Below, in pieces: positions 7,919 to 33,754 of a stretch of 33,754 bases of DNA. This DNA comes from a virus. The stretch is taken from positions 1-33,754 of the IMG/VR virus record IMGVR_UViG_3300017917_001233; one strand, 5' to 3'. The position numbers and the translations under genes were made by a program. The notes under the pieces were generated by a model. That model saw only the letters and a program-made list of their open reading frames with translations, searched no databases and was not told the DNA's origin. Within the stretch, counting starts at the first letter, position 1. Every line of letters begins with the position of its first letter.

Positions 7919-8191
7919 TTACTTCCCTTTCTTAGCGCATGCGGCTGTAGGGAAATATTCAGCTAGTTTCTTAGTGAAGTTAACGTATGGAGTACGATCG
8001 GTTAGAATTTCACCTGTCTTAGTGACAGCTTCTGTACCGGCATTAATAGCAGACTTTGTGTATGCGGTTTGAGCATCAACAAAGTTGTTTAGTACTTTTT
8101 GGAATTCATCGTGTTGAACGAACGTAGAAACGAATTGTTTCTTAGCGTTTTGAATAGTATCGACGGCTTGGAAAGCGTATTGATTAAACAT
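7919..8191 (-). CDS. Phasin-like helical protein, 90 aa
   Basis: MFNQYAFQAVDTIQNAKKQF ... VLNNFVDAQTAYTKSAINAG. The aromatic-poor, Ala/Thr-rich amphipathic helix with FVDAQTAYTKS resembles the phasin family, proteins that coat polyhydroxyalkanoate granules in bacteria. It is shorter than typical host phasins (about 150-190 aa). SD AGGAG precedes the ATG and a late-promoter-like GCATAAATA lies about 57 bases upstream, so it may be expressed late and abundantly. Alternative: a small structural or scaffold-like helical protein. Phasin assignment is tentative. Confidence 0.5.
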   Translation of the reverse strand: MFNQYAFQAVDTIQNAKKQFVSTFVQHDEFQKVLNNFVDAQTAYTKSAINAGTEAVTKTGEILTDRTPYVNFTKKLAEYFPTAACAKKGK

Positions 8192-8256: not shown

Positions 8257-8460
8257 CTAAGACATTTTATTATAATGTATTTCTCTGTATTTTTCTAGAG
8301 CCTTGAGTCTAATGAAGGCTAATCTAATTTTTACATAGTCAGAAATATCATTATCCGGATCTTCGAAATCATACTTTCTACGATATACCGGAAGTATATC
8401 CTCATCGCTAATAGTTAGATTTGGGTCTCCACCATTAACGATGAGTGATTTTCTTAATGG
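8257..8460 (-). CDS. Protein-like reading frame without a canonical start codon, at least 67 aa
   Basis: The frame reads PLRKSLIVNGGDPNLTISDE, DILPVYRRKYDFEDPDNDIS, DYVKIRLAFIRLKALEKYRE, IHYNKMS and a stop. The composition is that of a real phage protein: ordered acidic stretch, then a basic helix. There is no in-frame ATG, GTG or TTG between the last in-frame stop, which lies inside the upstream gene, and this region; only a CTG at about 8493 is available. It may be started from a rare codon, fused by +1 frameshift to the upstream gene at 8462-8704, or be a gene that lost its start. The range given is only the part beyond the upstream stop. Confidence 0.4.
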   Translation of the reverse strand, partial: PLRKSLIVNGGDPNLTISDEDILPVYRRKYDFEDPDNDISDYVKIRLAFIRLKALEKYREIHYNKMS

Positions 8461-8461
8461 A

Positions 8462-8704
8462 TTACTTCTTAGGAGCTTCGGCTTTGGAATCCTTGGCAGG
8501 TGCGCTTTTAGTGGCCTCTTTAGCTTGTTTGGCCTCGGCCTCCTTGTCTGCCTTCTTCTTAGCTAGTTTCATGTCACTAGCAGGAGCAGCTTGGGCAGCA
8601 GGTTGAGCAGCCGGTGCTGCTGGCGCAGCAGGAGCCTTAGCAGGTTCTGCGGCAAAAGCGGACACAGCAAAGAAACTTGCGATTAGAGTGGATAGTAATT
8701 TCAT
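8462..8704 (-). CDS. Exported Ala/Pro/Lys-rich low-complexity protein, 80 aa
   Basis: A Sec signal peptide (MKLLSTLIASFFAVSAFA, likely cleaved after AFA) is followed by a proline/alanine repeat region (APAAPAAPAAQPAAQAA) and a lysine/alanine/glutamate-rich tail ending KAEAPKK. Such proteins resemble small periplasmic, TolA- or histone-like bacterial proteins, and may be host-derived. SD AAAGGA precedes the ATG. A terminator lies just upstream, so it needs its own promoter, which I could not identify confidently. Downstream lies a start-less frame that could be its +1-frameshift extension. Function unknown. Confidence 0.6.
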   Translation of the reverse strand: MKLLSTLIASFFAVSAFAAEPAKAPAAPAAPAAQPAAQAAPASDMKLAKKKADKEAEAKQAKEATKSAPAKDSKAEAPKK

Positions 8705-8774: not shown

Positions 8775-8948
8775 TTAGCCGCCTCGGCCACTTCTCCGAA
8801 CTACAGATGGTCCACCAAAACCTTTGGATGGTTTTGGCATCTTTGCGTTACTATTTGAATTAGCATTGAATTGTTTACTAATATTGTTCTTTTTAGCTTC
8901 ATTAGCCATATTAACAAATGGATTTTTACTTTTCTTCGGTTCAGTCAT
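8775..8948 (-). CDS. 57-aa basic Asn/Lys/Gly-rich protein
   Basis: MTEPKKSKNPFVNMANEAKK, NNISKQFNANSNSNAKMPKP, SKGFGGPSVVRRSGRGG. Low-complexity, basic and probably disordered, with an Arg/Gly end. The start overlaps the upstream stop (ATGA at 8945-8948) with GAGGAAA before it. A nucleic-acid-binding or virion-associated role would fit the composition but is unproven. Last gene before the terminator at 8718-8738. Confidence 0.6.
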   Translation of the reverse strand: MTEPKKSKNPFVNMANEAKKNNISKQFNANSNSNAKMPKPSKGFGGPSVVRRSGRGG

Positions 8949-9340
8949 CGTTTCCTCTCTTTGGACAATTGTATATATCTGTCTATAGACCCGTATAAAT
9001 TAATTAGCATTGCGATCCTACTATCGTATACTCTTATAAAGGGCATCTTTTTACCATCAACTACCTTTACCTGTATATAGTAAGGGCATGGCATTTTTTT
9101 GTTAAGCTCTAACATATACTGAGTCCAGCTTAAAGTGACATTGCTATTTTTAAGCATAAAGTCAAAATCAAAATACTCAAAATCACAATTTCTAAAGGCA
9201 AGGTCTCCTGGATCAGTAAGGCGGAATCCGCCTTCTTTGCGGATATTTACCCACCACGTTTTTAATGCTTGCTCAAAAGTAAGATGTATGTCTGGCTTTT
9301 CTGCCAATATGATTCTAGTAAATTCTTCTTTACTACTCAT
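8945..9340 (-). CDS. Conserved phage hypothetical protein, 131 aa
   Basis: MSSKEEFTRIILAEKPDIHL, then FRLTDPGDLAFRNCDFEYFD, MPCPYYIQ and RVYDSRIAMLINLYGSIDRY. The order R-L-T-D-x-G, a D/E-Y-x-x-F segment, PYY and a C-terminal AMLxxLYGSIDxY is one I associate with a widespread small-protein family of T4-like phages of unknown function. A start at GTG 9352 is possible; the ATG at 9340 is preferred because it overlaps the end of the upstream gene. It overlaps the 57-aa gene by ATGA. Confidence 0.65.
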   Translation of the reverse strand: MSSKEEFTRIILAEKPDIHLTFEQALKTWWVNIRKEGGFRLTDPGDLAFRNCDFEYFDFDFMLKNSNVTLSWTQYMLELNKKMPCPYYIQVKVVDGKKMPFIRVYDSRIAMLINLYGSIDRYIQLSKERKR

Positions 9341-12242: not shown

Positions 12243-12691
12243 CTGACCTCTGTCCTACCGTTACCCAAATCTCTTTGCTGGATATGACGCAAATCTCTGT
12301 TAGTTGGGTCAGCCTGTGCTTGTTCGTATACCTCAAGTGCTACATTTCGGCACACATCTTGGAACCACCGATCTACGATATCTCTGTCGGTGTCCTCTTT
12401 CTTTTTCATGTAACCAGCTTTAACTAGTCTAGCAATAAAGATTTCATTCCAATCTAGTTCAAACGCACCCTCATGTAGATTGTTTGGATTTAATTCTAAC
12501 CCAATGATGTTTATATAAGGTTCGCCCGCTTGTGTTGCTTTTTCTTTAGCAGATATTTCAACTTTTGGCTCTTTTGGCTTGCGCGGTTTTTTTACTTTAG
12601 GTGTTGCTGGTGTTTTCTTTGCTTCAGGTAATACTTGATCCTCTGGCAAAGTGTCTTTATTTTTTCCAAATAGTTTATCCAATAATCCCAT
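12239..12691 (-). CDS. Conserved T4-like phage protein, 150 aa, basic linker plus helical domain
   Basis: MGLLDKLFGKNKD is followed by a Lys/Pro-rich disordered linker (TPATPKVKKPRKPKEPKVE) and a compact C-terminal domain: INIIGLELNP, ELDWNEIFIARLVKAGY, then DIVDRWFQDVCRNVALEVYE and ADPTNRDLRHIQQRDLGNGR ending TEVS. I recall this C-terminal domain in cyanophage and other T4-like phage hypotheticals. The start at 12691 has GAG eight bases upstream; four more residues are possible. A candidate promoter sits at 12745-12773. Function unknown. Confidence 0.7.
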   Translation of the reverse strand: MGLLDKLFGKNKDTLPEDQVLPEAKKTPATPKVKKPRKPKEPKVEISAKEKATQAGEPYINIIGLELNPNNLHEGAFELDWNEIFIARLVKAGYMKKKEDTDRDIVDRWFQDVCRNVALEVYEQAQADPTNRDLRHIQQRDLGNGRTEVS

Positions 12692-13703
12692 ATTTTTTCT
12701 CATAAAGTTTTATGCTAGCAAGATTCTTAGCCTTGCTTTCGCACATGATATCAAAGTGTTCATTGAATGTCAATGCCCAATCGTTGACAGCATCATTCCA
12801 ATAGTAGTCACTATGGGCACGTAATTTTTGCTTGTTATGACCTGCCTCCATCAACGCATCACGGGCGGGAAGGGCGTCTCGGGCATGGTCAACAAGTATG
12901 TCTTCCCTACTGACAGAATAATGGCAAGCAGGACGAATGCCACGCCAACTATCAATAACCTTTTTAACGCGGTCATCAGTAGGCTGAATGTATTCTCCAC
13001 TGTTAACCCAGTGGTGATGTATGTCCAATACGATTGGAACAAGGTCGCTAATTTGTAGGCAAGTTTCAAGATCATGTGTCATTTCCTCGTTTTCGATAGT
13101 CAGGCTATTTCGTGCCTCGGGACTAAGCCGAGTATATGCTTTACGAATACCATCAGGGCCCTGACGACCACTGATGTGTACATTGATTTTAATATCCTGA
13201 AAATTCTTACCATAGCCCATCCAGCGAGCCATATCTACGTGGTATTCAAATTCTTCGATACTTTGATTTACAACCTCTTCTCGGTCGCTAGCCAATACTA
13301 CAAATTGATCGGGATGAAAACTTACACGCACATCATTAGCACGGGCAGTTTCGCCTAGTGGTCTGAACCAATGTTCAAGTAGATTTTGAATATCAGTGGA
13401 TTTCCAAAAGTCACGATAATCTTTGTGTGTGTAGAAACTTAGCATGTCACTGGTGATACGCAACATACGTAACTGTGGGGGGAGGGTAGCAACTTTCTTA
13501 ATAAGGTTGTGTGTATTCATGATGTTGGTCTTAGCAACATCAATGATTTTTTCCTCAACCTTAGCACGTGGATTGCGATTAGCCCACGCTAGTGTAGTAC
13601 CACCGGTGTTCAGGCCCTCAGCACTGGCGATCTCGCCCTTTTTGTTAATCTCTGCCCACTTACAAGCAAAGCCGATACGTTTGATAGTTGGATTGAATGT
13701 CAT
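12675..13703 (-). CDS. uvsE: UV damage endonuclease (UvdE/UvsE family)
   Basis: 342 aa TIM-barrel metal-dependent repair enzyme that nicks DNA 5' of UV photoproducts. Family marks: RIGFACK at residues 11-17, MLRITSDMLSFYTHKD, VRVSFHPDQFVVLAS with a metal-binding His, INVHISGRQG, SLTIENEE, PIVLDIHHHWVN with the His cluster, and RAHSDYYW near the end. Nearly all metal ligands expected for the family are present. It starts with RIGFACK close to the N-terminus as usual, so the ATG at 13703 is right although no SD precedes it. Repair by UvdE in phages complements or replaces T4 DenV. Confident. Confidence 0.92.
   Translation of the reverse strand: MTFNPTIKRIGFACKWAEINKKGEIASAEGLNTGGTTLAWANRNPRAKVEEKIIDVAKTNIMNTHNLIKKVATLPPQLRMLRITSDMLSFYTHKDYRDFWKSTDIQNLLEHWFRPLGETARANDVRVSFHPDQFVVLASDREEVVNQSIEEFEYHVDMARWMGYGKNFQDIKINVHISGRQGPDGIRKAYTRLSPEARNSLTIENEEMTHDLETCLQISDLVPIVLDIHHHWVNSGEYIQPTDDRVKKVIDSWRGIRPACHYSVSREDILVDHARDALPARDALMEAGHNKQKLRAHSDYYWNDAVNDWALTFNEHFDIMCESKAKNLASIKLYEKKYGIIG
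12745..12773 (-). promoter_or_regulatory. Candidate sigma-70 promoter inside uvsE
   Basis: TTGACA at 12773-12768, 17-bp spacer, TATCAT (5/6) at 12750-12745, 54 bases before the 150-aa gene. It is within coding sequence, so chance occurrence is possible. Confidence 0.4.
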
Positions 13704-16113: not shown

Positions 16114-16361
16114 CTTTTTAATTCCCAAAATATATGTTCTTTTTTAGAGTGCCATCTATGTTCAAACATAGTTTCTCCGGGTCCAACCCACATAGCAGTT
16201 AGCCTGTATGCTTTCTTGAACCAAATAATTTTTCTAGTAAGATGGCATCGCTTAGGGAACCAGACAAACTTTAGTTGTTTTCCTATACAATGTGACGCAA
16301 ACAATTTGTCTGCGCTAGTTGTAAATCCTACATCTTCATCACTGGTCATAACTCCCATCAT
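16110..16361 (-). CDS. 83-aa hypothetical protein
   Basis: Begins MMGVMTSDEDVGFTTSADKL and continues with aromatic/basic segments (KFVWFPKRCHLTRKIIWFKK) ending FEHRWHSKKEHIFWELKR. The start codon is coupled to the QueE stop (TGATG), with the G-rich end of queE acting as the SD. The repeated His/Trp/Lys pattern near the C-terminus is striking, but I do not see a complete HNH or zinc motif. Function unknown. Confidence 0.6.
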   Translation of the reverse strand: MMGVMTSDEDVGFTTSADKLFASHCIGKQLKFVWFPKRCHLTRKIIWFKKAYRLTAMWVGPGETMFEHRWHSKKEHIFWELKR

Positions 16362-17209
16362 CAGGTCCCCCATTCGTTTTTGAATAATGGCACTTGTAAT
16401 CTATCACTGTACCTCCAACCTTTTCGCATTGCCATTTCTGCCACGTTACGATTGTTAAGGGAATACACGCTGTCAACACCGCCGACAGGCATAAGATAAA
16501 CAGGACCCGTGAAACCATATGAGCGATACTCATTTACTGCCCTTTCTGCGTCAGCCAAGTCCTCTTCCGTAGCGATTACAAATTTTAAATAGACAAAACC
16601 AACACTTTGATATTGATGTATAACCTTGGGCTGAATTGCTTCTTCCCATTTCTCTCCGCTTACAGTTAACTTAGGACTCACACTAAATGTAAGGGCATTC
16701 TTTTCTCTGTGCATCTTCCATGAATGTAAGAACTCAATGACTTCTGGATAAATCATTTGAGTTCCATTAGTCTCAAAAGTCAATTCCTTGAGATTATTCA
16801 TTTGCTTCTTAGAAAGAAGTTCCGGATAGTTTTTTTGCCATCCCAATAAAGGTTCACCACCGGTGATAACCAAGTGCTCATCGTACCAGCGATTGTGAGG
16901 CAGTATATCCATAATCCTACTAACAATATCATCGGTACTGAGATAAGGACTAAGATGTTTGAAACGAGGGTCCCAAGATGCATAAGAGTCACATCCAGTA
17001 CTGACAAGTGGAAGGGATTTATAATCCTTATAACTTTCTGCTTTAATTGCGATAACGTTTCTCTCATTAGTTTTCTCTCCCCGCGGCATTCCGAATCCAT
17101 CACATTTGAAATTACAACCAAATGTGCGGAGGAATACGCTAGGTACACCCATGTACCTGCCTTCACCTTGTATACTATAAAATAGTTCGCTGATTTTAAT
17201 TTCGCTCAT
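16361..17209 (-). CDS. queE: 7-carboxy-7-deazaguanine synthase (QueE), radical SAM
   Basis: Converts 6-carboxytetrahydropterin to 7-carboxy-7-deazaguanine (CDG). N-terminal SELFYSIQGEGRYMGVPSVF is diagnostic for QueE, followed by FLRTFGCNFKC. Cluster cysteines are Cys32, Cys36 and Cys73: the third lies in TGCDSYASW, equivalent to the CDTxYAW end of the normal motif, but after an insertion of about 35 residues. SAM-binding ITGGEP is at 115-120, then TFETNGTQ and FSVSPKL. At 282 aa it is longer than E. coli QueE (223), partly through the insertion. The start overlaps the QueD-like gene (ATGA), strong evidence for one pathway. Confident. Confidence 0.92.
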   Translation of the reverse strand: MSEIKISELFYSIQGEGRYMGVPSVFLRTFGCNFKCDGFGMPRGEKTNERNVIAIKAESYKDYKSLPLVSTGCDSYASWDPRFKHLSPYLSTDDIVSRIMDILPHNRWYDEHLVITGGEPLLGWQKNYPELLSKKQMNNLKELTFETNGTQMIYPEVIEFLHSWKMHREKNALTFSVSPKLTVSGEKWEEAIQPKVIHQYQSVGFVYLKFVIATEEDLADAERAVNEYRSYGFTGPVYLMPVGGVDSVYSLNNRNVAEMAMRKGWRYSDRLQVPLFKNEWGT

Positions 17210-18555: not shown

Positions 18556-18730
18556 TTTTGTTACCACAAGTACAATTGCGTCCTTGATTACAATTGTGTG
18601 TACAATCACTAGACGGGAGTCTATTTACTAAGAAATACACCCCCAAACCTGCTAGTATAAAAACAAATACATTAGCCGCAAGTTTTAATACATATCCTAG
18701 AAAAATACTGATACCAATTAATGTTTCCAT
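18548..18730 (-). CDS. 60-aa membrane protein with CxxxCxQGRxCxC motif
   Basis: An N-terminal hydrophobic region of about 40 residues (METLIGISIFLGYVLKLAAN then VFVFILAGLGVYFLVN) is followed by a Cys-rich tail, DCTHNCNQGRNCTC. The C-x3-C-x-Q-G-R-x-C-x-C signature recurs in short proteins of many unrelated tailed phages; a metal site is possible. AAGGA lies eight bases before the ATG, and the start overlaps the folE stop (TAATG). Function unknown. Confidence 0.7.
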   Translation of the reverse strand: METLIGISIFLGYVLKLAANVFVFILAGLGVYFLVNRLPSSDCTHNCNQGRNCTCGNKNA

Positions 18731-19410
18731 TACTTACATCCTTGACGAGCTATTTGATAAAACTCATTACGAACTGCCGGATCATTCTTAAAACCTCCAC
18801 CTAAACGACTGGTTACAGTAGAACTGCCAGTATCTTCAACACCTCTGCTTTTTACACAATAATGTTGTGCGTCAATCATAACAGCAACATCTTCGGTGTC
18901 TAGGATATACTGTAGTGTATGAAAGATTTGTTCTGTAAGACGTTCTTGAATTTGTGGACGCTTGCTGAAATATTCTACAATCCGATTAATTTTAGAAAGT
19001 CCCAGCACTTTATCCTTAGGCACATATGCAACAGTAGCGGTACCATCAATGATAACAAAGTGATGCTCACAATTACTCTGAACATTGACGTTCCTTTCAA
19101 CTACCATTTCGTTGTACTTCATCTTGTTATCAACTGTAGTACACTTGGGGAATGCTTCATAGTCAAGACCCCAAAAGATTTCGTTGACGTACATTTTAGC
19201 AACACGTTTAGGTGTTTCGATAAGACTATCATCACTTAAGTCTAGACCCAAGATACGCATGATATGTGTAAAATGTGCCTCGATATGATCGATTTTTTCT
19301 TTACGGTCATAATTGTTAGGCACTGTTGGAGTCTCAACACCCATCTTAACTAGATGTTCGTGTACACGTTGACCCAATTTTGGATCGGTTTTTGTTTTGT
19401 TGTATGACAT
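18730..19410 (-). CDS. folE: GTP cyclohydrolase I (FolE)
   Basis: 226 aa. Opens the guanine ring of GTP to give dihydroneopterin triphosphate, the entry point to 7-deazaguanines and folate. QSNCEHHFVIIDG (111-123) has zinc ligands Cys114 and His117, and the third ligand is Cys185 in AQHYCVKSRGVED. VAYVPKDKVLGLSKINRIVE and STVTSRLGG are further family marks. Length matches E. coli FolE (222). SD AAGGA at the ATG 19410 rules out the longer frame that reads back through the hairpin at 19446-19469. Very confident. Confidence 0.95.
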   Translation of the reverse strand: MSYNKTKTDPKLGQRVHEHLVKMGVETPTVPNNYDRKEKIDHIEAHFTHIMRILGLDLSDDSLIETPKRVAKMYVNEIFWGLDYEAFPKCTTVDNKMKYNEMVVERNVNVQSNCEHHFVIIDGTATVAYVPKDKVLGLSKINRIVEYFSKRPQIQERLTEQIFHTLQYILDTEDVAVMIDAQHYCVKSRGVEDTGSSTVTSRLGGGFKNDPAVRNEFYQIARQGCK

Positions 19411-19445
19411 ATAGAATCCTTCCTTACGCGGATATGAAAATTGAA

Positions 19446-19469
19446 ATGTGCCACCTTTGTGTGGCACAT
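19446..19469 (-). terminator. 9-bp hairpin downstream of the H1-like gene, possible terminator
   Basis: ATGTGCCAC-6-base loop-GTGGCACAT, a perfect 9-bp inverted repeat between the H1-like gene and folE. On the minus strand it is followed by TTCAATTTTC, a poor U-tract, so it may be a weak terminator or an mRNA-stabilising or processing hairpin in the folE leader. Confidence 0.5.
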
Positions 19470-29973: not shown

Positions 29974-30684
29974 CTAAGGCGTGTTTCTTAATTTCAAAAG
30001 TCCAAGCATTCTGAACATTTGAATATAAATCCATCCCATATCTAACTCAAACCATCTTTTACTCAATCTAGGATTCGCTGGATTTAAGTGATGGTTATTA
30101 TGAAGTTCTTCACCACCAATAATAATACCAATAGGACTGATATTCCTACTATTATCTTTTGTATTTCCATTACGATATCCCCACCAATGACCTATACCAT
30201 TGACTACACCGGCAGCCCAGAAAGGAATCCAAATCATTTGTACTCCCCAAATTATGGCGCCAATCCAACCGAAGACGGCAATATTGAACACAAAGAGAAT
30301 GCCAATGCCAAGTCTGGAGTGAGCAGAGTATATGTTGCGCTCCATCCAATCATCAGGAGTGCCAACACCGTATGTATTAACCATATCTTTATCTTTTGAT
30401 GCTTCATGGTATAATAATGCTCCCTTAAATAAAACACGCCATATTCCATAAATTAATGGACTATGCGGATCACCAACTAAATCACAATCTTTATGATGTT
30501 TTCTGTGTATAGCTACCCACTGTTTAGTAACCATACCTGTTGTAAGCCACAACCAGAAACGCATAAAGTGACTTAGCACAGGATTAAAAATTAAACCTTT
30601 ATGTGCTTGTCCTCTGTGTAAAAATACTGTAACACACACAATAGTAATGTGCGTAGCAACCAAAGTGTATAAGAGTTCAATCAT
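29974..30684 (-). CDS. Membrane fatty-acid desaturase (acyl-CoA/lipid delta-9 type)
   Basis: 236 aa di-iron membrane enzyme that would introduce a double bond into acyl chains. The three histidine boxes are complete: HRGQAH (23-28), HRKHH (60-64) and HNNHH (195-199), plus His166 in NGIGHWWGYRN. Hydrophobic spans at about 1-20, 35-52 and 123-165 match the usual topology, with a DPHSP segment after box 2. It is shorter than bacterial acyl-CoA desaturases (about 300 aa), mainly at the ends. It is coupled to the methyltransferase-like gene by ATGA. As a phage gene it is an auxiliary metabolic gene acting on host membrane lipid. Confident. Confidence 0.9.
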   Translation of the reverse strand: MIELLYTLVATHITIVCVTVFLHRGQAHKGLIFNPVLSHFMRFWLWLTTGMVTKQWVAIHRKHHKDCDLVGDPHSPLIYGIWRVLFKGALLYHEASKDKDMVNTYGVGTPDDWMERNIYSAHSRLGIGILFVFNIAVFGWIGAIIWGVQMIWIPFWAAGVVNGIGHWWGYRNGNTKDNSRNISPIGIIIGGEELHNNHHLNPANPRLSKRWFELDMGWIYIQMFRMLGLLKLRNTP

Positions 30685-31259
30685 TCTTTGATACCTATTA
30701 CCATAAATCTATCATATTCAGTTTCAGGATCCTGTAAATGCTTAGAACCTTGGTATAACACCTTCAATGGATAAATTTTTAATATATCTTCAGGACCATT
30801 GAATTGTCTTCCTGGATCTTGGTTTCTAGCTTGTAGGGCAACCATAGTTCCTGAAGGTATATTACCGAACCAGTCTTCACCTTTCATATCGGTTAAACTT
30901 GTATTAATTACTAATCCGTTTCTATCTAACTGTCTGTAATCTAGATTGTTAGCATCTTTAAACATGAATTCGACATTATCATCAACATTAGCTATTTTAT
31001 GTAATGATTTTGCTGTTTCTAAAAATTCACGATTAGTTTCTACGTTAATTATTTTCTTGGCAGTTATATTGCTATTCATTTTTATATACAATGAAGTATT
31101 AGAATACCAAGCTCCTAAGACATAGATTGTTGAAAATGTGTTTTTTATTTTCTCAATTTCATCAATCAACCACATTTTACTTACGTTGAGGTCATGAGTC
31201 ATACTACCTTCAAGGCTATACCCACTACTTTCTACTAATTCTATTTCTGTGATTTTCAT
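30681..31259 (-). CDS. SAM-dependent methyltransferase-like protein with capsid-targeting-like N-terminus
   Basis: 192 aa. FSTIYVLGAWYSNTSLYIKM (42-61) is a degenerate Rossmann motif I; KIINVETNREFLETAK has the acidic ribose contact (Glu); NVEFMFKDANNLDYRQL and GLVINTSLTDM fit motifs II and III; PSGTMVALQARN is the following strand. The glycine-rich loop is replaced by GAWYSN, so activity is uncertain. The N-terminus MKITEIELVESSG resembles T4 internal-protein capsid-targeting peptides that are cleaved after L/I-x-E. It overlaps genes on both sides by ATGA. Fold moderately sure. Confidence 0.6.
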   Translation of the reverse strand: MKITEIELVESSGYSLEGSMTHDLNVSKMWLIDEIEKIKNTFSTIYVLGAWYSNTSLYIKMNSNITAKKIINVETNREFLETAKSLHKIANVDDNVEFMFKDANNLDYRQLDRNGLVINTSLTDMKGEDWFGNIPSGTMVALQARNQDPGRQFNGPEDILKIYPLKVLYQGSKHLQDPETEYDRFMVIGIKE

Positions 31260-33163
31260 GAATTTCTACCATACATCAGATTGCTTGTTCCGCCATTTTG
31301 TTGCTTCCAACGCAAGAAATAGTTGTAAGCATTTGACACATCAGGCGCATAATATCTATGTACAACTTCACCGGTGTCTCGATTTGAAATTTGAAAATTA
31401 TTTTCTCTGCCTACTGGTTGCGGATCACCGGCTGTGGCTCTAACTTCACCTTGTTTTGGCCTGTCATCTACGAAAGGTCTAAGTAAACTTATTTTAGCAT
31501 CATTGATGTTATAATGTCTCCACTCTGGGGTAGCAGTCACCGCACTATCCCACGCATCTTTTTTGTTTTTGCCTACAACTTCAATTCTAGTATTACCGAT
31601 ACTAACGTTCCACCAGTAATCGCCGGCGTCTTTTCCTTGAGATTGTTTTAATGTTGCTAATGCTAATCTTCTAAAGTCAGCTACAACCTTTTGCGGAGCG
31701 CCGCCGACAGCAGTAACATACTGACTAAAATCATTAATCATTTGGCCATACACATCCGTGCTAGCATCAGGATTTAACAACCTATATAATTTTTTATAGT
31801 ATTCTTGTTTATACTTTTCTGGATCACAAGACGCATCCATAGCTACAACGAATCTATATAATGTATTAATTAGTGTTTCGATATCTTCATTAAGCCAATC
31901 ACCACCTGGACTTCTAAATTCTATGTAGCCATCTTTAGTATTGATACTAGTGTATTTGTCTGTTACCCCACTATGAATTAACTTTACAGCTTTTTCATCT
32001 AAGCCTTCACGCATTTTTTCTAAGACAGTTGTTACATCACCGGGATTATTACGTAGTCTTTTGCGAATATTTACTAGTGCGCTCTTACAATAGTTATTTG
32101 CTTCTCTACCAAATTGTTTTAGGATGTATTCATCTCCCATTAACAATGCTAACTTGGTATAGTCTACTTTTTCTCTACTATAGTTAGGAACGCTAATATT
32201 CATGTGTAACCCAGTAGATTCGTTAGTATAGCAACCATAATTCTGTGCCCATTCAACCACATCTTTTAAATCTTCTACTAGTTCGGTTAATGGTAATGGT
32301 GGGCTGACAAATTCTAATCCAGTATCACTATCATCATCTGGACTTAAACTTCCATCAGGTTCAACAGTATATTCACCTTTTTTTCGAATGCCATGATAGC
32401 TACTAGAAGCATTACACGGTCTACCTATAGCATCACTAAAACTTTCAGCAACGTTTTCTATACTTTCGACGCCGCCACCTGAACGTGTAGTGTGTGGCCA
32501 ATAAACATCATTATTGCTACCAAATTCATGGTATACGTCACTCATCCACTTATAGTTTCTATCTAACCAATCACCTTCGTCAGGACCATCATAATCATCT
32601 ATAAAGGCTTCATATGCTCTCTCGTATATACGACCTTGATTGTCCCATTCTTCATCAATAAACTCATCAAATAATTCATCGACTCTTTCTCTGATATACT
32701 GATGCCAAGCATCACTATCTTCTTCAATTTCTGGATTGTTTTCTTTTAATTCTTCAATAGCTGTTTCTGCGGCCTCATCTTCATCAAAATAATCGTTTAC
32801 CTCAATGTAATCCCTTAAGAAATCTCTTCCATTGTTTGACCAATCTTCACTTTGATATTCAGTAAGCCATTCAAAAAATTCTTCCTGCATTGATTCAATC
32901 ATGCTACGAACATCGCGGCGACTATTATTACCGTCACCGCCCATAAAGAAATCTTCTATACCACTCCAGCTACTAGCTCTGTCATCAGCATCAAAGTCTG
33001 GTTCATATTCATCATTGTCCGGATCTTCTGTGTCTGGAACTATCATTTCAAATTCCATGCCGGCTGTAGCGTTTATATTTTTTACGAGGAGCTTTAACGA
33101 TGAAGGACTCATGTTCACTTCATCTAATTGTTGATATTCTATTAAGAAATCTATGGCTCTCAT
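31256..33163 (-). CDS. Putative amidoligase (Amidoligase_2-type, COOH-NH2 ligase), 635 aa
   Basis: Residues 35-40 (GMEFEM) match the family G-x-E-x-E opening. YTVEPDGSLSPDD (265-277), TGLEFVSPPLPL (281-292) and STGLHMNISVP (316-326) match the later D-x-S-L, E-x-x-SP and TGLHxHx motifs, which carry ATP- and metal-binding residues of this ATP-grasp-like ligase family. A 200-residue acidic insertion (SEDWSNNGRD ... DEGDWLDRNY) splits the domain. The family forms amide bonds on peptides or proteins. The N-terminus MRAIDFLIEYQQLDE resembles a capsid-targeting peptide (LIE). ATG 33163 is in a TAATG overlap. Family fairly sure, substrate unknown. Confidence 0.7.
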   Translation of the reverse strand: MRAIDFLIEYQQLDEVNMSPSSLKLLVKNINATAGMEFEMIVPDTEDPDNDEYEPDFDADDRASSWSGIEDFFMGGDGNNSRRDVRSMIESMQEEFFEWLTEYQSEDWSNNGRDFLRDYIEVNDYFDEDEAAETAIEELKENNPEIEEDSDAWHQYIRERVDELFDEFIDEEWDNQGRIYERAYEAFIDDYDGPDEGDWLDRNYKWMSDVYHEFGSNNDVYWPHTTRSGGGVESIENVAESFSDAIGRPCNASSSYHGIRKKGEYTVEPDGSLSPDDDSDTGLEFVSPPLPLTELVEDLKDVVEWAQNYGCYTNESTGLHMNISVPNYSREKVDYTKLALLMGDEYILKQFGREANNYCKSALVNIRKRLRNNPGDVTTVLEKMREGLDEKAVKLIHSGVTDKYTSINTKDGYIEFRSPGGDWLNEDIETLINTLYRFVVAMDASCDPEKYKQEYYKKLYRLLNPDASTDVYGQMINDFSQYVTAVGGAPQKVVADFRRLALATLKQSQGKDAGDYWWNVSIGNTRIEVVGKNKKDAWDSAVTATPEWRHYNINDAKISLLRPFVDDRPKQGEVRATAGDPQPVGRENNFQISNRDTGEVVHRYYAPDVSNAYNYFLRWKQQNGGTSNLMYGRNS

Positions 33164-33754
33164 TATCGTCCCGTCCAAACTGCATATAGCCCAGTATATG
33201 AATTATAACCACCGTAGACTTTACTCAGTTGTGTGTCTATGTATGCTTGTAATTCTTGTTTTGTGGTGCTAGGCTTAACATCAAAAGCAAAGTAGTGACG
33301 ATCACCGGCTTTTCCTATATATTGTCCACCTAATTGGCCCATGATGGTGTCAATACTTTTATCTACCATTTTGTTATGTCTTTTTTCCCAACCACTAGGG
33401 TTAGGATAGTTTTTAAAATCGTAATCGTCAAGTCTAAAATAACCCTTCATCTCAACACCGGGGATTTGACTTAGACTCAACCAGTTTTTGCGGCCTCCGG
33501 GTGTTTGACTTGAACCGGCAAGTAAAGGACGCCTCATAATAGTCAATACAATACCGTAAAGTGCTTTAGCCAAACCCATACCACGATAATCTTCGTCTAT
33601 AGTAATAGTTCCTACTTGTACAGCATTTTTCAATGGAAAGTAATTACCAACTCCCATAACACTAAGTTTACCTACTATCTTACCTGGAGCACTGTCAAAA
33701 GCTGCTTTGAGTCTAGCATTTCTTTCCTTCCAACGCTTCATTCTTTCTTTATAA
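33163..33754 (-). CDS. GNAT-like acetyltransferase, 5' end outside window
   Basis: The first ATG inside the window is at 33741, but the frame stays open to the edge (YKER before the Met), so the gene probably begins outside. VQVGTITIDEDYRGMGLAKA followed by LYGIVLTIMRRPLLAGSSQT is the beta-4/alpha-3 acetyl-CoA-binding unit (R-G-M-G-L/A) of GNAT enzymes, followed by GRKNWLSLSQIPGVEMKGYF, as in phage GNAT-like proteins. The C-terminal 80 residues (from DKSIDTIMGQ) are a separate domain. The substrate is unknown. It is coupled to the amidoligase gene by TAATG. Confidence 0.6.
   Translation of the reverse strand, partial: YKERMKRWKERNARLKAAFDSAPGKIVGKLSVMGVGNYFPLKNAVQVGTITIDEDYRGMGLAKALYGIVLTIMRRPLLAGSSQTPGGRKNWLSLSQIPGVEMKGYFRLDDYDFKNYPNPSGWEKRHNKMVDKSIDTIMGQLGGQYIGKAGDRHYFAFDVKPSTTKQELQAYIDTQLSKVYGGYNSYTGLYAVWTGR

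Follow-up and report, generated by a model that had tools for sequence, protein, structure and literature searches.

A short gene of an uncultured virus very probably uses programmed +1 slippage of tRNA-Lys on AAA_A to make both a short, putatively exported protein and a version of it with a C-terminal extension. The gene lies in a 33.8-kb IMG/VR virus record, which we analysed as a single stretch of 33,754 nucleotides (the window). Comparison with related loci points to this mechanism through the two-frame layout of the gene, an invariant AAA AGY in the first frame, a peptide encoded in the +1 frame upstream of the first stop codon, homologues that carry the same domain in one frame, and a hairpin specific to the two-frame loci. 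We infer that slippage proceeds by re-pairing of tRNA-Lys and that the products are exported.

Under the proposed mechanism, one mRNA would give rise to two proteins. Most ribosomes would read the ORF encoding the signal peptide and Ala/Pro/Lys-rich tail (frame 0) to its TAA, yielding a short exported product with a basic, disordered-looking tail. A fraction of them, with peptidyl-tRNA-Lys on AAA and AGY in the A site, would slip by one base onto the overlapping AAA (A_AAA), take an Ala or Val tRNA on GCN or GTN, and then translate RIPKPKLLRSNP and the C-terminal domain in +1. The long product would then carry the same export signal and spacer, followed by a domain of ~70 residues ending in an amphipathic-looking helix.

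A start-less frame shared by many viral loci

In the window, the frame that lacks a start codon comprises 101 codons from stop to stop (8257-8562, minus strand), is +1 relative to the ORF at 8704-8462, and overlaps it by ~100 bases (Table 1). It contains no ATG, GTG, or TTG ahead of the domain, and from the Ser codon overlapping the frame-0 TAA to its own stop it spans 69 codons. A preliminary description of this DNA had reported a protein-like frame of 67 residues, with no ATG, GTG, or TTG before the in-frame upstream stop (TAG, 8565-8563), lying in +1 of an exported Ala/Pro/Lys-rich ORF and remaining open for more than 100 bases into that gene. Each of these observations holds, and the 67 codons (8460-8257, stop included) sit within the 101-codon frame. 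The boundaries given for the frame left out the conserved +1 peptide upstream of the frame-0 stop (8493-8461).

Table 1 Positions of the features discussed in the text, in window coordinates.
Feature	Position	Strand	Remarks
Shine-Dalgarno-like AAGGAA	8711-8716	-	Six bases 5' of the first-frame ATG; read in the sequence
Frame-0 ORF, 80 aa (80 codons), ATG start	8462-8704	-	Signal peptide and Ala/Pro/Lys-rich tail ending in KAEAPKK
Putative signal peptide MKLLSTLIASFFAVSAFA	8651-8704	-	Called by eye from the sequence
Frame-0 stop codon TAA	8462-8464	-	Read in the sequence
Nearest upstream stop in the +1 frame, TAG	8563-8565	-	Read in the sequence
Proposed +1 slip site AAA AGC	8504-8509	-	Re-pairing on A_AAA; Ser codon AGC in the A site, then GCG in the +1 frame
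+1-frame part after the slip, AHLPRIPKPKLLRSNPLRK...KMS, then stop codon	8257-8505	-	Predicted fusion of 148 aa
Conserved +1-frame peptide RIPKPKLLRSNP	8458-8493	-	Straddles the frame-0 stop; in one continuous frame in class-2 homologues
Predicted RNA hairpin	8398-8449	-	Begins 12 bases after the frame-0 stop; structured segment across class 1, not class 2
C-terminal helix, residues 43-68 of the +1 part	8263-8340	-	Confident part of the AlphaFold2 model
UvdE-like UV endonuclease	12675-13703	-	
Radical-SAM protein	16361-17209	-	
GTP cyclohydrolase I	18730-19467	-	
Fatty acid desaturase	29974-30684	-	
Amidoligase-like protein	31256-33178	-	

The 69-residue peptide matched 20 viral contigs, and an alignment search added two more; with 22 IMG/VR loci in total, the start-less frame is far beyond what chance would produce. 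Because these first searches leaned on the conserved SNPLRKSL, we repeated them with C-terminal-only queries that start about ten residues further on, after the junction, and used the best 80 of 86 and the best 80 of 195 confirmed relatives, two sets that partly overlap. When pooled with the first set these gave 117 distinct loci among the matches listed, and 115 of these 117 had the two-frame layout, with the domain in +1 of an ORF encoding a signal peptide and an Ala/Pro/Lys-rich tail. We refer to the two-frame loci as class 1, and used 58 non-redundant class-1 loci (window included) for most statistics; many of the loci are related, and the counts are therefore not independent. A DNA-pattern scan recovered at least 120 stretches, among which 76 loci differed in local sequence and showed this architecture, and was left out of the counts because its pattern required the motif itself.

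We found 47 copies in the 46 records that were searched whole, indicating a single-copy gene in nearly all of them. One record of 524 kb (IMGVR 3300027749_002876) contained two copies of the domain gene (L187 and L223), unlike the 45 others, and possibly represents two genomes joined in assembly. In tblastn searches of 50,697 records of named phages we obtained no match for the window domain or the SNPYRL-type domain, and only matches at E = 0.9 to a Gordonia phage for a third domain type; the bacterial genome contigs that were searched likewise contained no relative. A short DNA match to Vibrio phages fell within the Ala/Pro-rich stretch and was taken as compositional.

Using the frame-0 ORF of locus L302 (which shares a contig with L352) as query, we recovered 37 loci representing 11 distinct sequences, which together with L015 make 12 distinct class-2 loci. 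In class 2 a signal peptide, a linker, and the domain follow one another in a single frame, preceded by a TGAGGA-type ribosome-binding site, and starts with ATG in 11 of the 12 distinct loci and with TTG in L015; L374, for example, reads MKGLTIALAMMIGIGTSQAS...KSTRIPKPKLFRSNPHRATHF. The motif RIPKPKL[LF]RSNP stands out in L374, L373, and L015, can still be made out in L363 and L380, and is faint or missing in the other class-2 loci; class 1 has the first part of this motif in +1, ahead of the stop. This match implies that the class-1 product should be an exported protein with the domain. A single phage protein family may have two export routes, with a signal peptide of its own in class 2 and one borrowed by frameshifting in class 1. 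The preliminary description had suggested that homologues with a normal ATG at this site would reveal a sequencing error or mutation. Homologues with a normal ATG do exist, but that ATG lies upstream, in one frame with the domain and with a signal peptide of its own, and thus indicates the expected form of the fused product, not an error.

A second ORF overlaps the class-2 genes almost from their start (beginning MLMRTRNE or MLMRTK) and has the Cys pattern CxCP...CDQKR, as seen at L352:3967-4143, L374:992-1156, and in L015 near 4811. This ORF could be a genuine gene, or it could be no more than a side effect of the ribosome-binding site. The idea that L015 is not an in-frame fusion, given the Cys-rich ORF that overlaps it in frame 0, was overturned by its start codon and ribosome-binding site.

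The proposed slip site and the point of frame change

An in-frame AAA AGY was present 10-30 codons 5' of the frame-0 stop in all 115 class-1 loci, and likewise in 58/58 of the non-redundant set. When 114 loci were aligned on this site, AAAAG were the sole invariant bases in 105 columns, but the last in-frame AAAAGY of each ORF served as the alignment anchor and produces this invariance, so the informative part is that none of the 115 loci lacked AAA AGY. Codon shuffling within each ORF indicated that on average 15% of ORFs would hold the hexamer. Across the 58 non-redundant loci, Lys was encoded by AAA in 37% of cases and Ser by AGY in 47%, and among the other Lys-Ser pairs of the same ORFs only 1 of 17 was AAAAGY, indicating that the codons matter and not the amino acids. 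The run AAAA would permit perfect re-pairing of tRNA-Lys in the +1 frame. Stop codons in the +1 frame numbered 0 among 1044 codons between the site and the frame-0 stop versus 45 among 2131 upstream of the site, a contrast that is probably due in part to a recurrent Met-containing motif upstream.

The hexamer cannot suffice for frameshifting, given that it occurs 234 times in 1048 neighbouring ORFs. The corresponding expectation from synonymous shuffling is 295, but this deficit says little about avoidance because AGY is also depleted after AAG. A hungry-codon cause acting through a rare AGY was unsupported, since AGY is not rare in these genes, where AGT was the most frequent of the Ser codons sampled. 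We also rejected slippage at AAA AAA or AAA GCC nearer the stop, as L001 has neither (CCC CAA GCC) and AAA AGY is the common element, and a -2 slip at AAG AAG, which does not fit the loci ending in a single AAG.

To locate the change of frame we calculated substitution rates at frame-0 codon positions 1, 2, and 3 across 304 pairs. Upstream of the slip site these were 0.117, 0.135, and 0.293, and in most of the overlap 0.052, 0.016, and 0.199; the rates in most of the overlap follow the frame-0 positions, which identifies frame 0 as the constrained frame there. In the last five codons and the stop the rates were 0.109, 0.012, and 0.024, and downstream of the stop they were 0.236, 0.163, and 0.121; in both stretches the rates follow the +1 frame, whose codon positions 3, 1, and 2 these are. 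These patterns suggest that selection also acts on the short frame-0 product beyond the slip site, that the +1 linker is weakly constrained until the motif near the stop, and that the downstream frame is under purifying selection across divergent homologues. At frame-0 codon -3 the residue was Pro in 28 loci, Ala in 13, Ser in two, and Val in one, and the residue read in +1 was Leu in 44 of 44, encoded by three different codons.

The class-1 +1 peptides just before SNP shared a mean of 5.8 of 9 identities with RIPKPKLFR of L374 (44 loci), compared to a mean of 1.0 of 9 and a best value of 5 for 968 control 9-mers taken from these loci in +1, 5' of the slip site. The peptide thus matches a protein that needs no shift, which argues that ribosomes are already in the +1 frame before the stop. 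At L303 a +1 TAA lies directly 5' of AAA, so that the shift cannot be earlier than AAA, and at L001 and L018 the conserved +1 peptide VPKxKLLRSNP begins directly after AAA, which makes a later shift unlikely; the two sides of this bracket come from different loci.

Downstream structure and alternative explanations

No excess structure was found in the 69 bases 3' of the slip site (mean z +0.4). The class-1 loci have a predicted hairpin that begins about 12-15 bases past the frame-0 stop (mean z about -2 in 58 loci, or about -1.2 when anchored at the gene end), and this hairpin is absent from class 2 (about -0.3 in 12 loci). Its distance to the slip site, about 45-105 bases, exceeds that of usual stimulators, and no Shine-Dalgarno-like stimulator was visible within 45 bases 5' of that site. 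Searches of Rfam returned only sub-threshold matches, and within one clade changes in the stem were mostly one-sided, with both sides changed in 2 of 16 pairs (weak covariation). A second, terminator-like structured zone occurs at the end of the domain in several loci and overlaps the last codons; in L242 (818-844) and L278 (758-786) a strong hairpin followed by T's starts in the last domain codons and contains the stop, apparently a terminator built into the coding end, and none is evident in the window.

The hairpin past the frame-0 stop may help frameshifting. Its constant distance from the stop invites the speculation that it affects a ribosome at the stop while the slipping ribosome is the one behind. 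In its most specific form, which we regard as rather unlikely, this would be collision-driven programmed frameshifting, in which a ribosome pauses or terminates at the stop before the hairpin and a queued ribosome 1-3 footprints behind slips, with AAA_AGY serving as a +1 signal across a large group of uncultured tailed phages through sense codons and no rare A-site codon.

The class-1 specificity of the hairpin and its fairly constant position relative to the stop could also be explained by a programmed shift near the frame-0 stop itself (xCT AAG AAG TAA), driven by the hairpin 12-15 bases 3' of that stop, with AAA AGY employed for something else; AAG TAA is indeed in frame in 56 of the 58 loci. 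We consider this unlikely given that the +1 peptide before the stop is kept as protein and is common to class 2, which implies that +1 is read earlier. In addition, tRNA-Lys on AAG would need to re-pair with AGU, and AAA AGY would be left unexplained. Less probable again is that the domain is a separate protein made from an internal non-standard start such as CTG, or by re-initiation coupled to the frame-0 stop. Overlapping phage genes are often translationally coupled, an ATG, GTG, TTG, or CTG can be found somewhere in the open +1 frame of all 58 loci, and 20 of them have a GTG between the slip site and the stop. Nevertheless, the potential start codons occupy no conserved position and lack a Shine-Dalgarno sequence: CTG is the only one of these codons in the whole open +1 frame of 16 loci, the window among them, the other 42 have ATG, GTG, or TTG at no conserved place, and four of the 58 have none of ATG, GTG, TTG, CTG, ATA, ATC, and ATT between the slip site and the stop. 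An internal start would also omit the signal peptide that class-2 homologues carry on the same domain.

Polymerase slippage on the A run, giving a mixed mRNA pool, would account for AAAAG as the invariant core but leaves the invariant AGY after the run unexplained, and a run of four A's is too short for efficient polymerase slippage; we view this as highly improbable. The window alone would permit a sequencing error, or a start that decayed in this genome only, yet the same layout recurs in 115 of the 117 distinct loci listed, from many metagenomes, and the domain has coding-type substitutions, leaving almost no room for this explanation. Of the options raised in the preliminary description, the lost start, decayed gene, or sequencing error is accordingly excluded by the conserved layout, and a CTG or other rare start is unlikely given the loci with no near-start codon and the invariance of AAA AGY. 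The +1 shift proposed there, which would join a signal peptide, a low-complexity spacer, and a domain with acidic stretches and a helix, is strongly supported.

Predicted gene products, genomic context, and known +1 sites

An AlphaFold2 model built from 58 sequences gave pLDDT values of 83-97 for 10-residue blocks in the C-terminal helix, with an overall pTM of 0.38. The domain matched no PDB sequence below E = 0.059, and neither the class-1 domain nor the class-2 proteins had a convincing match in Pfam or PHROGs; matches to DUF3619, made by 6 of 17 members, reached E = 0.012 at best and were not credible. The computed pI was 9.7 for the mature short product, which is thus basic, and 9.6 for the predicted mature fusion, with a charge of +7.

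The window encodes a family B DNA polymerase, an ATP DNA ligase, and a 5'-3' exonuclease, and related contigs have genes for a single-strand DNA-binding protein and a UvsX-like recombinase near this gene, suggesting a T4-like replication neighbourhood. At most, the gene product may be a periplasmic protein expressed with replication genes. Judging only from its export and this neighbourhood, our guess is that it works in the periplasm and affects the host envelope, lysis timing, or superinfection. The next gene downstream (7919-8191, minus strand, 90 aa) belongs to a cluster found in 51 class-1 and two class-2 loci of 128, with no Pfam match and a weak match to PHROG 9654 of unknown function. 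A small basic protein with the Gly/Arg tail VVRRSGRGG (8775-8960, minus strand) is encoded directly upstream in 56 class-1 loci of 128. Other genes of the window code for a UvdE-like UV endonuclease, a radical-SAM protein, a GTP cyclohydrolase I, a fatty acid desaturase, and an amidoligase-like protein (Table 1), and no tRNA genes were found in it.

Neither the AAA AGY site nor the protein family was described in the literature we searched, which consisted mostly of papers outside subscription. The class-1 domain would escape gene callers that require a start codon. The loci constitute a natural series of more than 100 distinct sites with one six-base core and little else in common, and this shared core makes the question of what makes a +1 site work directly testable. 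The passage on forward (+1) frameshifts in the PRFect paper reports no general motif identified for them (PMC10885494). Unlike -1 heptamers of the form X_XXY_YYZ, the present loci have the domain in the +1 frame, not the -1 frame.

Among phages, the cps and tsh genes of Listeria phages PSA, A118, and A500 are described, in the passage devoted to them, as using a +1 slip to make a second product with a C-terminal extension (PMC5009743). The codon there is Pro (CCC_UGA, or CCC before a pseudoknot) and the genes encode capsid and tail proteins (PMC5009743, same passage), whereas at the sites examined here the proposed slip is on Lys AAA followed by a Ser sense codon, within a gene for a putatively exported protein and 10-30 codons ahead of its stop. 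In the bacterial release factor 2 gene prfB, the P-site tRNA slips +1 at CUU_UGA, as outlined in the section on that gene (PMC10885494). In contrast to prfB, the present sites have AGY and not a stop codon in the A site, and have no upstream Shine-Dalgarno-like element.

The +1 site of EST3 has the Ser codon AGU in the A site, like that of Ty3. For yeast Ty3 (GCG_AGU_U), the account of that element describes the A-site Ser AGU as slow, followed by GUU in the +1 frame (PMC5009743). The phage sites resemble these two in placing a Ser sense codon of the AGU type in the A site, but Ty3 and EST3 are eukaryotic and have Ala or Leu in the P site, and AGY is common in the phage genes. In Euplotes, +1 shifts occur at AAA before a stop. 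The mechanism by which Lys AAA in the P site slips +1 is treated in a general passage (PMC5009743). The proposed phage sites would share with Euplotes the +1 slip of Lys AAA in the P site, although Euplotes is a ciliate and depends on poorly read stop codons.
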